From Candidatus Yanofskybacteria bacterium RIFCSPLOWO2_01_FULL_39_28 (lineage in GTDB: Bacteria > Patescibacteriota > Minisyncoccia > 2-02-FULL-40-12 > GWA2-44-9), in assembly GCA_001794635.1 (NCBI GenBank), contig MGKE01000014.1:1-38121 (forward strand): a stretch of DNA of 38,121 nucleotides, given 5' to 3'. The translations under genes were made by a program, and so were the position numbers. Positions 3,303 through 37,897 of this stretch are shown piece by piece (positions within the stretch are counted from its first letter, which is position 1; each line of letters starts with the position of its first letter). The notes beneath the pieces are model-generated. The model had not been told where the DNA came from. It saw only the letters and a list, made by a program, of their open reading frames with translations, and searched no databases.

Positions 3303-4075
3303 AATTTGGAAACAAGAGATAATATCTTAACAAATTCTTCCTTGTTGACTGAAGCTCCGCCAACCAGCACTCCATTAATTTCTTCTTCCTTAAGAAAATT
3401 GGCCACATTCTTAGAATTCACCGAGCCACCGTATAAATAGGTTTTAGGTGATAGGTGATAGATTTTAGAAAAAACTTCTTTGATTACAGAAATTGATTCT
3501 AGAGCGCTTTGCGGAGTATCGGAGTGAGCGCCAGGATTGGTGCTTATAGCCCAGACCGGTTCGTAAGCAATAATACAACGGCTTATCTCGTCAGAAGTTA
3601 ATCCTTCAAAGGTGTTGGTAATTTGTTTTTCCAGAAATTTACTAAAGTTCTCATCTCTTTCTCGTTCCCCCATACAAACAATCGGAACCATGTCGTTTCT
3701 TATAGCTGACTTTAATTTTTGATTGACTACTTGATCAGATTCTCCTAACTTCCACCTTCTTTCAGAGTGGCCAATAATAACATACCGAACGCCAAGTTTC
3801 TGAAGCATGGCCCCAGAAACTTCACCGGTGAGAGCAGTCTCATCTTCTACGGCAATATCTTGAGCTCCAAGTTCGGCTTCATGTTCTAGATGTGATGTTT
3901 TCAAAATTTTGCCAACTTCTTCAATAAAAACAAACGACGGACAAAAAACTAAACTAAATTCTTTTTTTTCATTCAACAATTCTAAGTAATCATTAATTAA
4001 ATCCAAAACCCCTTCAGCTTCAGCAAGAGTTGTTGGCAGCATTTTCCAATTTGCAACTATAAGTTTTTTGCTCAT
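3299..4075 (-). CDS. tpiA: Triosephosphate isomerase
   Basis: IVANWKM, GHSERR, AYEPVWAI, YGGSVNSKN. Confidence 0.96.
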   Translation of the reverse strand: MSKKLIVANWKMLPTTLAEAEGVLDLINDYLELLNEKKEFSLVFCPSFVFIEEVGKILKTSHLEHEAELGAQDIAVEDETALTGEVSGAMLQKLGVRYVIIGHSERRWKLGESDQVVNQKLKSAIRNDMVPIVCMGERERDENFSKFLEKQITNTFEGLTSDEISRCIIAYEPVWAISTNPGAHSDTPQSALESISVIKEVFSKIYHLSPKTYLYGGSVNSKNVANFLKEEEINGVLVGGASVNKEEFVKILSLVSKL

Positions 4076-5070
4076 ATCTTGACATTCCTTAACAGTTCCG
4101 CTGACTCATCAGGATCAACTACGTTTATTGCGACACCAGTTCCTATTTCAAATCCTGCGTCAATTTTAAGGTGTGGAACAATCTCCATGTGCCAATGGTA
4201 GAATTCATGAATATTAACGCCGAATTCATTAGTTAAAGGCGCGGTATGAATAAAGAGATTAAATGGCGGGGCATCTAAAACTTTGTTAATTTTTTGCAGA
4301 GCCGTCCACATTGCATCGGCAAAAAACTCATCAAAATTATCTGGCATTTGATTAAAGTGGGCGTGGCTTGATTTTGAAAAAATTCTGACTTCGTAAGGAT
4401 ACTTTGAAACATAAGGACAAAAAACTATAAATTCTTTATTTTCGTAAATTACCCTAGTTCTTTCTTTTTGCTCCCATTCTAAAAGGTCGTAATAAACCTG
4501 TTTTTTGTGTTTATGATAATATTCAAAAGAACCGTTAATACTTCGGAAAACATCCGGCGGAAGAATTGGCATGGTAATTATTTGTGAATGAGGATGATAT
4601 ATGCTAGCCCCCGCTGCTTTACCATGATTGTGGAATATTAAAATATATTTCGCACATTCGTTGTTGTTTGTCAGTTCGGTAAAACGCTTTTTATAAATTT
4701 TAATTGTATCAATGAAGTCAGCCGCTGAAAATTCATAAATAGTACGGTCGTGGTCTCTAAAAACAATAACCTCATGGTCGCCGATAGGATCAAATATTTT
4801 GAAAGGTCCATATTCTTGTTCGTTAACGCAAAGTCCTTGCTGGACAGCGGGGTATTTATTTTTGATAATAGTTGCATGAGAATTTTCTTGGCTTGGATAA
4901 TTACCAACAACTTCTTGTCCGGAAAAGTCTTCAAAAGGACACTCTTTCTTGGTCTGATAAAAACCTCTATCCTCGCCATTATGTAAACTTTTAGATCTCC
5001 CCGTAGCAAAAAGGACCCATTCACCGGAGACTAGATCTTGCCTGAATTCATTTAGTGGTTTTTTGTTCAT
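4072..5070 (-). CDS. Galactose-1-phosphate uridylyltransferase-like (HIT superfamily)
   Basis: IYHPHSQIITMPILP, CPFEDFSG, HWHMEIVPHL. Confidence 0.85.
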   Translation of the reverse strand: MNKKPLNEFRQDLVSGEWVLFATGRSKSLHNGEDRGFYQTKKECPFEDFSGQEVVGNYPSQENSHATIIKNKYPAVQQGLCVNEQEYGPFKIFDPIGDHEVIVFRDHDRTIYEFSAADFIDTIKIYKKRFTELTNNNECAKYILIFHNHGKAAGASIYHPHSQIITMPILPPDVFRSINGSFEYYHKHKKQVYYDLLEWEQKERTRVIYENKEFIVFCPYVSKYPYEVRIFSKSSHAHFNQMPDNFDEFFADAMWTALQKINKVLDAPPFNLFIHTAPLTNEFGVNIHEFYHWHMEIVPHLKIDAGFEIGTGVAINVVDPDESAELLRNVKI

Positions 5071-28992: not shown

Positions 28993-29020
28993 AAAAAAGC
29001 CCGTTAAGGGCTTATTTTTT
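28993..29020 (-). terminator. Terminator overlapping the 3' end of the ThyX-like gene
   Basis: Minus strand TAAGCCCTTAACGGGCTTTTTTATT. Confidence 0.8.
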
Positions 29021-30727
29021 AGGAATAGCTTTAGGACCTCTGGCAAAAACATATTCCCATGTCGTGTCAGCACGGGATATTCTTTCCCACCAAGGATATT
29101 CATAACGCAAAAATTCTTCTGTTCTCAAGACCACCTTTCTAACTTCTTCATTGACTCCCCATTTGGTTCTCTGCCAATTTACAAATTCCCACTCTCTTAA
29201 GTTTGCGCCAACAATGTAAGGCACAAAGTTGCCGACCATATAGGCATATTGGGCTAGCATGCGGAAACCGTACATAGAAGTAGTCAGGTCAGAATCACAT
29301 AAAAATCTTTCACAGAGATGCAACTCTGAATATTTTTCTATAAATTCTTGAGGCATATCTGGCGGCAAATACATGCCCAGATTAGGAGTAACCCATCCCC
29401 GTTTATGAGTACAAAATCCCATTCTCTGAAGGTCACGCCAGCTTCTGAAACTCATCAATCCGGAAAAAATACCGCTAGCATGCTCAAACCAATCAGGAAG
29501 CTTTTCATAACTCTCATGACCGGAGTTTCTTTTTCCGAGATCGTTAAATAAATTTCTGGCTTCCAAAAATGTTGCGTCAATATTTGCTCCTGACATTTTG
29601 ATAATTGATTCCAGAGCTAATGCATTGGGCACAAGATAATCTCTTTTTACAAAGACGTCCGGCCTTATCTCCTGACTAGAATTAGGATAATCCCTGATCC
29701 AGAATTGATACTGTATATGATCTGTAGCTCCAGGCATATAGTGGTTGCCTAATAAGATTCTGTTTCCAACTTTTTTGGCTTCCTCAATAATTTCAAAAGC
29801 TAAGGCCGCACATTCTGGATTCGCATCAGCAATTAAGTGCCTGACAACGCTCTGATAGGCCTCCCCCATCATTGAAACACCAAGAGATGTTAATGTGGAG
29901 CAGGGCAGTAAATTACCCAAACTATCGCAAACCTTACCGGTAATAGCCGCTTTGGAAGGATCTAGGTGGGCAAACTCTCTCTCAAAGTGAACTACGCATA
30001 CAGGGTATAAATCTTCATAAGCACCCATACATGCCATTGCGTGTTTTTCTATAGACTCCGCCTTTCTGTAATATGAAGTAAAGAACCTCCACGCCGGATA
30101 TAGCTCTTTTGCTCTCATATCAACAAACCTCGTAGAGAGCTCTATATACCCAGCACCAGGACGAGCCCACTCAACGGTTTTAGCAGCTAATATAGAAATA
30201 TTCTCCAAGGCTAAATGAACTATGCCCATTCTAGCAATTGAATTATGGCCATAGGCATCTAGAAACTTAGTTAAAAATTCCTTAATCTTTTGAATGGTAA
30301 CAACCGAACCGTAATAGCCAAGAGAGAAACCCATCCCCATGAGTTTTTCTAATTCCTCAACAGGAATATCAACTATCCGCACTCCTGGCCTATTTTCTAC
30401 TTCGCCATACTCTTTCAAAAATCCTTCGGGATCAGTAAATATTTTTCCGATTATCGGAATATTGGTAACAAAATCATCAAGAAAAAGGCCCCTAAGACCC
30501 CTTGGATTTTTAATTCGGGAATATCTAGCAAGAAGTGTGGTGACTAGTTCTTCCGGCAAACCATAAATGAAGTAGGTATTTTTGTCTGTGTTACTAAAAA
30601 CTCTACCTAAAATTCTCTTCTCTCTTTCGGTAAATATTGGCACCAGAGCTTCTCTGCGAATTTGGATAGCTAAATCTAACTGTTCCCGAAATTCATCTGG
30701 AAAATTATCCATCGTAATCATCCTCAT
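29012..30727 (-). CDS. Long ThyX-like (FAD-dependent thymidylate synthase family) protein
   Basis: YGHNSIARMGIVHLALENISILAAKTVEWARPGAGYIELSTRFVDM resembles the ThyX substrate/FAD motif region; 571 aa; next to dcd-like and tmk genes. Confidence 0.75.
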   Translation of the reverse strand: MRMITMDNFPDEFREQLDLAIQIRREALVPIFTEREKRILGRVFSNTDKNTYFIYGLPEELVTTLLARYSRIKNPRGLRGLFLDDFVTNIPIIGKIFTDPEGFLKEYGEVENRPGVRIVDIPVEELEKLMGMGFSLGYYGSVVTIQKIKEFLTKFLDAYGHNSIARMGIVHLALENISILAAKTVEWARPGAGYIELSTRFVDMRAKELYPAWRFFTSYYRKAESIEKHAMACMGAYEDLYPVCVVHFEREFAHLDPSKAAITGKVCDSLGNLLPCSTLTSLGVSMMGEAYQSVVRHLIADANPECAALAFEIIEEAKKVGNRILLGNHYMPGATDHIQYQFWIRDYPNSSQEIRPDVFVKRDYLVPNALALESIIKMSGANIDATFLEARNLFNDLGKRNSGHESYEKLPDWFEHASGIFSGLMSFRSWRDLQRMGFCTHKRGWVTPNLGMYLPPDMPQEFIEKYSELHLCERFLCDSDLTTSMYGFRMLAQYAYMVGNFVPYIVGANLREWEFVNWQRTKWGVNEEVRKVVLRTEEFLRYEYPWWERISRADTTWEYVFARGPKAIPKK

Positions 30728-33885: not shown

Positions 33886-36075
<2,190 letters not shown>

Positions 36076-36169: not shown

Positions 36170-36421
36170 CTAGAACCTAATTACTCCGGAAAAGTAGAAA
36201 AGTGCAACAAATGCAATTCCCCACATAAAACCGGAGAGGGCTAATCTTTCTGCCAACACTTCACGTCTCCATAGTTTTTCTTTATAGGCAGCTCTTCCGA
36301 TCTTATCTCTTTCAGTAGTAGGCAAAGCATCATATTGAGCCAATACCGCGTTAATTCTATTTTCAGCCAACATGTAAGCGTGAGCGCCCGTCATGCGTAA
36401 CCTCCTCCCAAGTCGAGCCAC
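36170..36421 (-). CDS. Small membrane protein, hypothetical
   Basis: 83-aa ORF with a C-terminal hydrophobic segment (SGFMWGIAFVALFYFSGVIRF). Confidence 0.55.
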   Translation of the reverse strand: MARLGRRLRMTGAHAYMLAENRINAVLAQYDALPTTERDKIGRAAYKEKLWRREVLAERLALSGFMWGIAFVALFYFSGVIRF

Positions 36422-36461: not shown

Positions 36462-37610
36462 TCAACGCAATTCCGCTCCGAATTGTTTGGCTGTCTCGTT
36501 GTAGATTTGCTTTTGGATCGGATCTATTTCTTCAGTGGTTAGGGTTCGTTCGTTTGAACGATAAATAATCCGGTAAGTATAGCTGACTTTGTCTTGGCCG
36601 AATTTCTCGGCATTTTCGTATTTATCCAACAACTCAACCTGCTCAACCAAATCCCCGCCAAAATGACGGATAAGATCAAAATAATTATTAGGCACAAAAC
36701 TCTTGTCAACGACAAAAGAAATATCTCTGGTAATCGGCGGGAACTTGGAGACTTCTTTAAACTTATTGCCTAACTTTAGTTGTTTTTTTACCCGCTCATC
36801 CTGGGACCACAATAACCGTATATCAGGCAACTCCATACTAATAATCGCCAACCTTTCCAATCCAAAGCCAAAAGCCCAGCCATTATATATTTCCGGATCT
36901 ACGCCAAGATTGTGTAAAACCGAGCTTTGCACAACTCCACTACCTAAAACTTCAACCCATCTGTCGCCTATTTTAACCTCCATTTCACAGCTTGGATCGG
37001 TATAAGGAAATTGGTCAACATTAAATCTGTATTCAATATCTTTACCAAAAATAGTTTGGGCAATTTCGGTCAAAACTTCTTTTAAATCATCCAGGCCGAT
37101 AATTTTTTCTTCTTTGCGACACAGATACCAGCCATCCATCTGGTGAAAAACGTTCATATGATTTCTATCTATTTCGTCTTTTCTATAGACCTTGCCACGA
37201 CACAATGCTCCGACCGCCTCCCCTTTTTTGATTTTACTTCTTATGTCTTTTTGATTAAGCCAGTAATACCACATTACCGTCGTATGGGTTCTTAAAATAT
37301 TACTGTCGTCAATAAAATACGTGTCCGATTTTGAACGAGCGGGATGATCGGGGGGGAAATTAAATAAATCAAAACTCATATCGGCCGGAACAATTTCCGG
37401 TATTTTAACAATGTCAAAATATTTGAATCTGCGTAAAGAGGTTATCCTTTCAGATAGTTCAGCAATCGGACTCCCTGGTGTTCTTGATAAATCCGGCATA
37501 TCCAAATACCTCTTGATTCTTTTCGCCTCAAAGTCATCTCTTTTTTCCAGAGATTTTATTAATTTTACCTCATCTTCGGATTTAATTTCTATTATTCTAC
37601 TGCTAGTCAT
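36462..37610 (-). CDS. Phenylalanyl-tRNA synthetase, single-chain type: PheS-like catalytic domain plus C-terminal FDX-ACB domain
   Basis: DHPARSKSDTYFIDDSNILRTHTT, GKVYRKDEIDRNHMNVFHQMDGW, GWAFGFGLERLAIISMELPDIRLLWSQDERV, then KFPPITRDISFVVDKS...FYDLIR-like...YTYRIIYRSNERTLTTEEI. Confidence 0.9.
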   Translation of the reverse strand: MTSSRIIEIKSEDEVKLIKSLEKRDDFEAKRIKRYLDMPDLSRTPGSPIAELSERITSLRRFKYFDIVKIPEIVPADMSFDLFNFPPDHPARSKSDTYFIDDSNILRTHTTVMWYYWLNQKDIRSKIKKGEAVGALCRGKVYRKDEIDRNHMNVFHQMDGWYLCRKEEKIIGLDDLKEVLTEIAQTIFGKDIEYRFNVDQFPYTDPSCEMEVKIGDRWVEVLGSGVVQSSVLHNLGVDPEIYNGWAFGFGLERLAIISMELPDIRLLWSQDERVKKQLKLGNKFKEVSKFPPITRDISFVVDKSFVPNNYFDLIRHFGGDLVEQVELLDKYENAEKFGQDKVSYTYRIIYRSNERTLTTEEIDPIQKQIYNETAKQFGAELR

Positions 37611-37897
37611 TGTCTAATTCGCAATAAAGTTAGGATAACTAATAAAAGCGTGGAAATCAAAAATCCTCTCTTAAAAGCCCTCTCAAATTGAAGCTCGTCT
37701 TTTTTACCAAAATAATAAAAACCTATTGATCCCCAACTCCATAGCAAAGCAAATAAAAGAGAATAAAATAAAAACTTAGCGTAAACATTCGACTGGGCAG
37801 GATCAAAACTAAAAGCAATGACAACCAAACCGGTTAGAGAAATTATACCCACAAAAACTAGAACTAATACTTTTGACATACTGGTTTTACTGAACAA
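37607..37897 (-). CDS. Hypothetical membrane protein (96 aa)
   Basis: Three hydrophobic segments; overlaps flanking same-strand genes. Confidence 0.6.
   Translation of the reverse strand: MFSKTSMSKVLVLVFVGIISLTGLVVIAFSFDPAQSNVYAKFLFYSLLFALLWSWGSIGFYYFGKKDELQFERAFKRGFLISTLLLVILTLLRIRQ

Follow-up and report, generated by a model that had tools for sequence, protein, structure and literature searches.

A single-chain phenylalanyl-tRNA synthetase in place of PheST in Patescibacteria, with likely kinship to the mitochondrial enzyme

Based on domain searches, a predicted structure, phylogenetic trees and surveys of related genomes, we assign with high confidence the gene at positions 36462-37610 (minus strand) of the window, which is the whole 38,121-nucleotide stretch of DNA that was analysed, as the housekeeping phenylalanyl-tRNA synthetase (PheRS) of this patescibacterium, a single chain that takes the place of PheST. 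Prokaryotic PheRS has been described as always a heterotetramer, with the single-chain form a peculiarity of mitochondria (PMC3275996), and the open-licence literature yielded no account of a monomeric PheRS from bacteria. The new element is that single-chain PheRS has a bacterial branch, which replaces PheST without an editing domain, together with the kinship of this branch to the human mitochondrial enzyme, FARS2. The initial annotation of this DNA had proposed a bacterial "monomeric" PheRS, which we read as single-chain, without a pheT partner, and this proposal is supported by the genome search, the phylum-wide exclusivity with PheT and the exchange with pheST in place, all of which are presented below.

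The open reading frame starts with ATG, contains no internal stop codons and encodes 382 amino acids. Its product carries a PheS-type class II catalytic core (residues 47-277; 36780-37472, minus strand; PF01409, E 5e-55; pLDDT mostly above 90) and a C-terminal FDX-ACB anticodon-binding domain (residues 288-382; 36465-36749, minus strand; PF03147, E 1.6e-25), and both Pfam matches lie well over their gathering cut-offs, in agreement with the two-part architecture first read from the sequence. Downstream there is a 74-aa ORF (36170-36394, minus strand), whose sequence is probably that of a small membrane protein, followed by gyrB (33886-36063, minus strand), the conserved neighbour that marks the site of the exchange; directly upstream, a 90-aa ORF (37607-37879, minus strand) overlaps the start of the pheRS gene by 4 nt. 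Neither side holds pheT, as had been noticed at the outset for the adjacent gene. Elsewhere in the window, positions 29012-30727 (minus strand) encode a 571-aa protein that appears to be a tandem ThyX-type thymidylate synthase, close to genes whose products resemble dCTP deaminase and thymidylate kinase.

The AlphaFold2 model of the protein (36 homologues) has a pLDDT of 93.8 and a pTM of 0.89 and shows the expected FDX-ACB fold at the C-terminus. Its seven best full-length matches in the PDB are all human mitochondrial PheRS, with a TM-score of 0.77 to the closed form over the full length and 0.58 to the open, tRNA-bound form. The catalytic motifs were located by alignment. The region GKVYRKDEIDRNHMNVFHQMDG (residues 139-160; 37131-37196, minus strand), which we take to be motif 2 of the class II synthetases, contains R143, H156 and Q157, and motif 3, AFGFGLER (residues 246-253; 36852-36875, minus strand), contains A246, G248, G250, E252 and R253; all of these residues are invariant among the 36 homologues. 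The phenylalanine-pocket motif is FPY (residues 201-203; 37002-37010, minus strand), in contrast to the FPF of E. coli PheS and human FARS2. The aromatic pair of this motif has a role in the phenylalanine pocket, and eukaryotic cytosolic PheRS also has a tyrosine at the second aromatic position (PMC3275996). In the FDX-ACB domain, D329, S343 and R382 are invariant and Y331 nearly so; by spacing alone, these four residues would correspond to Asp729, Tyr731, Ser742 and Arg780 of Thermus thermophilus PheT (in the order D329, Y331, S343, R382), which contact G34 (PMC9976931).

The single chain is present in one copy in the assembly, which has 815 kb in 15 contigs and an estimated completeness of 86%. 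Whole-genome searches, which the initial annotation had called for in the case of pheT, found no second pheS, canonical or otherwise, and no pheT: the bacterial PheT model matches only the FDX-ACB domain of this protein and a 147-aa ORF with a tRNA-binding domain. The B3/B4 editing domain (PF03483) was not found in the genome either, and among the genomes tested it occurs in 0/46 with the single chain vs 14/14 with PheST. Given the 15 contigs and the completeness of about 86%, a PheST hidden in the assembly gaps, with the single chain as a second enzyme, could be imagined. However, G014 and G056, both single contigs rated 100% complete, likewise have the single chain, no B3/B4 domain and no PheT match beyond FDX-ACB, and canonical PheT was not found in any relative or phylum-sample genome with an intact single chain, so that we give the hidden PheST practically no credence.

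Our survey of the phylum of the window covered 293 Patescibacteria genomes with a completeness of at least 90%. The single chain is encoded in 30 of them, in addition to the genome under study, with a few copies truncated where a contig ends or broken by a frameshift, and its distribution extends from Parcubacteria/Paceibacteria to one or more other groups of Patescibacteria. In all 31 single-chain genomes, the best match of the PheT model is no stronger than about 1e-33 and corresponds to FDX-ACB alone, whereas in 256 of the other 263 phylum-sample genomes PheT is found with an E value of 1e-38 or lower; in the remaining 7 the match is weak, fragmentary or absent. According to these counts, which were tallied by hand, the single chain and PheT exclude each other (Fisher p 1.6e-35, with the genomes treated as independent despite their kinship). 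The same holds for 60 relatives, in which the single chain and canonical PheST are mutually exclusive; two incomplete ones (78% and 74%) lack a full copy of either. A single scan of named genomes with exact peptides of the protein gathered loci from Yanofsky-, Giovannoni-, Doudna-, Kaiser-, Zambryski-, Nomura-, Vogel-, Lipton- and other Patescibacteria. The same PheRS was also seen on a contig filed as Nanoarchaeota (L068), which is probably misbinned.

The genomic position of the gene shows how the two enzyme types alternate. In 59 of 80 named loci, no more than 3 kb separates the single-chain gene from gyrB, and relatives with PheST have pheS-pheT at the same place upstream of gyrB. This is clearest in G041, with the order fam15-pheS-pheT-gyrB-fam14, and G029, with the order fam15-pheRS-gyrB-fam14, whose gyrB genes are sisters in the gyrB tree (support 96/90); pheST likewise adjoins gyrB in G004 and G036. 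Since pheST and the single chain occupy the same site in closely related genomes, one replaces the other, and this exchange in place, combined with the exclusivity, implies that the single chain performs the role of PheST. When mapped on the gyrB tree, the type of PheRS switches six times, and at least four of these switches are forced by well-supported branches. The single chains of other classes belong to one clade on this tree (100/100), but their grouping in one clade is rejected on the PheRS tree (AU p 2e-5), which indicates that the single chain itself has probably been passed between lineages. The gyrB genes of G008, G011, G013 and G029 (L205, L207, L209 and L214) form frames of about 1150-1220 aa with a long insert, perhaps an intein, that interrupts the match to the GyrB of the window.

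The scores of the protein fall between families, and no curated NCBIfam equivalog model claims it. It obtains 243.7 bits with the mitochondrial model TIGR00469 (pheS_mito; cut-off 258.35), for which two other bacterial single chains score 221 and 245 bits, and 171 bits with TIGR00468 (pheS; cut-off 237.45), whose pheT partner was not found. The nominal best hit, at 251 bits, is SrmL (NF051887), and true SrmL proteins of plasmids have the same single chain and the same order of two domains, from which it might be supposed that the gene encodes an SrmL-like paralogue of PheRS, a one-chain ligase resembling PheS that has a different substrate and no housekeeping role. We consider this very improbable and rejected the identification on score and tree placement: the protein stays under the 300 bits required for SrmL, whereas true members reach 515-524 bits; SrmL proteins form a separate long branch in the trees and have HPYT instead of the FPF/FPY-PS pocket motif; in this analysis they turned up on plasmids and one phage, and the gene of the window is the only PheRS of a genome that lacks PheT. 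The SrmL genes at L181:5845-6963 and L182:5845-6957, on Glutamicibacter and Azotobacter plasmids, are annotated as hypothetical proteins, and a 635-kb uncultured phage (LR745206.1) carries an SrmL-like single-chain relative of PheS with an altered phenylalanine pocket motif (L183:4001-5038), of which a further scan of viral contigs found no relative.

The resemblance to the mitochondrial enzyme, proposed from short segments of the protein, is now seen in sequence, fold and tree. The best PDB sequence match is human mitochondrial PheRS (E 1e-60, vs 1e-38 for bacterial PheS). This enzyme (PheRS-M, FARS2; PDB 3cmq, 3tup), listed in AARS Online with the human gene FARS2 (PMC11580382), shares with the bacterial protein a PheS-type core, a C-terminal FDX-ACB and the lack of an editing domain, with about 40% identity in both domains. 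The bacterial protein differs from it in being the sole PheRS of a bacterium, in its shorter interdomain linker, in having FPY instead of FPF and in falling under the TIGR00469 cut-off. The resemblance to the human protein could in principle come from eukaryotic contamination or from a FARS2 gene acquired very recently. Yet the gene stands in bacterial gene order with gyrB and nusG on a contig of 177 kb, and the arrangement beside gyrB is found again in numerous independent genomes. Identity with human FARS2 reaches only about 40%, and the copies from bacteria group in a deep clade of their own (100/98). We therefore rejected contamination, which is exceedingly improbable in view of the gene order and its recurrence across genomes.

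The weightier alternative is that the gene does encode a single-chain PheRS but that the bacterial and mitochondrial forms have separate origins, a PheS core having been fused to a PheT C-terminus in each case. The step is simple, as one deletion suffices in a pheS-pheT operon, and the catalytic-core identity of the bacterial single chains to human FARS2 (35-42%) is barely above that of PheS (31-40%). In the trees, the single chains (patescibacterial, FARS2 and SrmL) stand apart from 29 PheS+PheT concatenates (100/100), and the core-only tree also separates them from the PheS cores (100/99) while leaving the position of FARS2 among them unfixed; in trees with human FARS2 as the only sequence of its type, AU tests reject no placement. 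The FDX-ACB domain, however, argues against separate fusions: its identity to human FARS2 is 36-47% in the bacterial single chains vs 13-35% in PheT domains, and the tree of this domain groups FARS2 with the patescibacterial sequences (100/99), although the AU test retains the alternatives (p 0.175 and 0.252). Further evidence comes from a 388-kb viral contig, probably of a jumbo phage (L199; IMGVR_UViG_3300024262_006558), which at positions 3854-4963 encodes a 369-aa FARS2-type single-chain PheRS, adjoining genes for GluRS and a T4-type RNA ligase/tail-fibre attachment protein. The phage enzyme is, like that of the window, a single chain with the same domains; unlike it, it passes the mitochondrial model (293.7 bits) and groups with human FARS2 (98/94), outside the patescibacterial clade (100/98). 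With this sequence added, the tree unites the bacterial single chains and FARS2 against the 29 PheST pairs with support of 100/99, which makes independent fusions unlikely in our estimation. Two other candidates, L200 and L201, were rejected as single chains because they look like PheT C-termini in the tree.

These results suggest that the bacterial single chains and FARS2 likely share ancestry, as judged from their sequences, and that, among the bacterial proteins considered here, the patescibacterial one appears to be nearest to human mitochondrial PheRS. The initial suggestion that the gene bears on how the mitochondrial enzyme originated is supported as a shared ancestry of the single-chain form, in an unrooted tree whose FARS2 side comprises one eukaryote, human, and the phage sequence. 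From this one phage example, a transfer route through phage-borne FARS2-type enzymes is possible; further scans of viral contigs did not find a second gene of this kind. We tentatively put forward, as a view that could well prove wrong, that mitochondrial PheRS was acquired from a bacterial single chain, possibly carried by a phage and still used by Patescibacteria, instead of being built in the mitochondrial lineage, and that whole clades of Patescibacteria live without PheRS proofreading.

As for the substrate, the tRNA-Phe genes are identical in G012, with the single chain, and G019, with PheST, both having G1-C72 and A73, and no tRNA-Phe feature specific to single-chain genomes was seen. 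The intact tRNA-Phe genes that were found have, alignment ends excepted, G1-C72 and A73, the set that human mitochondrial PheRS reads. The pattern search missed the gene in several genomes, including that of the window. There it lies outside the window, at C14:135090-135385 (minus strand; loci L280/L284), and is split by a group I intron of 223 nt (RF00028, 65.4 bits against a gathering score of 50), which would be inserted between U33 and G34 in the anticodon loop. ARAGORN does not report this split gene, whose transcript must first be spliced to become the substrate of the PheRS.

By analogy with the known enzymes, the PheS core of the single chain would make Phe-AMP and charge tRNA-Phe, and its FDX-ACB would read the wobble base G34, a function located on PheT in other bacteria. 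Human mitochondrial PheRS is active as a monomer, has no editing activity and shifts its FDX-ACB domain upon tRNA binding (PMC3275996, PMC9976931); in the bacterial protein, FDX-ACB likely packs on the core as long as no tRNA is bound and would swing out to hold the tRNA in the same manner. With the heterotetramer PheS2PheT2 the protein shares the core motifs, presumably the reaction and, in relatives, the gyrB site, its FDX-ACB corresponding to B8 of PheT. It differs in lacking PheT with its domains B1-B7 and in falling on the other side of the tree. Among the features of PheST that it does not have are the coiled coil of the N-terminus, the second core, which is inactive, and the B3/B4 editing site. 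As the B3/B4 site is missing, Tyr-tRNA-Phe would not be cleared by the usual route, from which we infer a loss of proofreading in the single-chain Patescibacteria.

A bacterial single chain as the only PheRS in large groups of Patescibacteria would overturn the generalisation that the prokaryotic enzyme is always a heterotetramer. The mitochondrial enzyme gains a bacterial relative, by which its origin becomes testable through phylogeny, and bacteria predicted to lack PheRS editing would constitute a natural experiment in mistranslation. At a single chromosomal site, pheST and the single chain are swapped with the neighbouring genes unmoved. A large group of the Patescibacteria, bacteria with tiny genomes, appears to rely for its Phe-tRNA on a single small protein of mitochondrial type, where the usual bacterial enzyme has four subunits.
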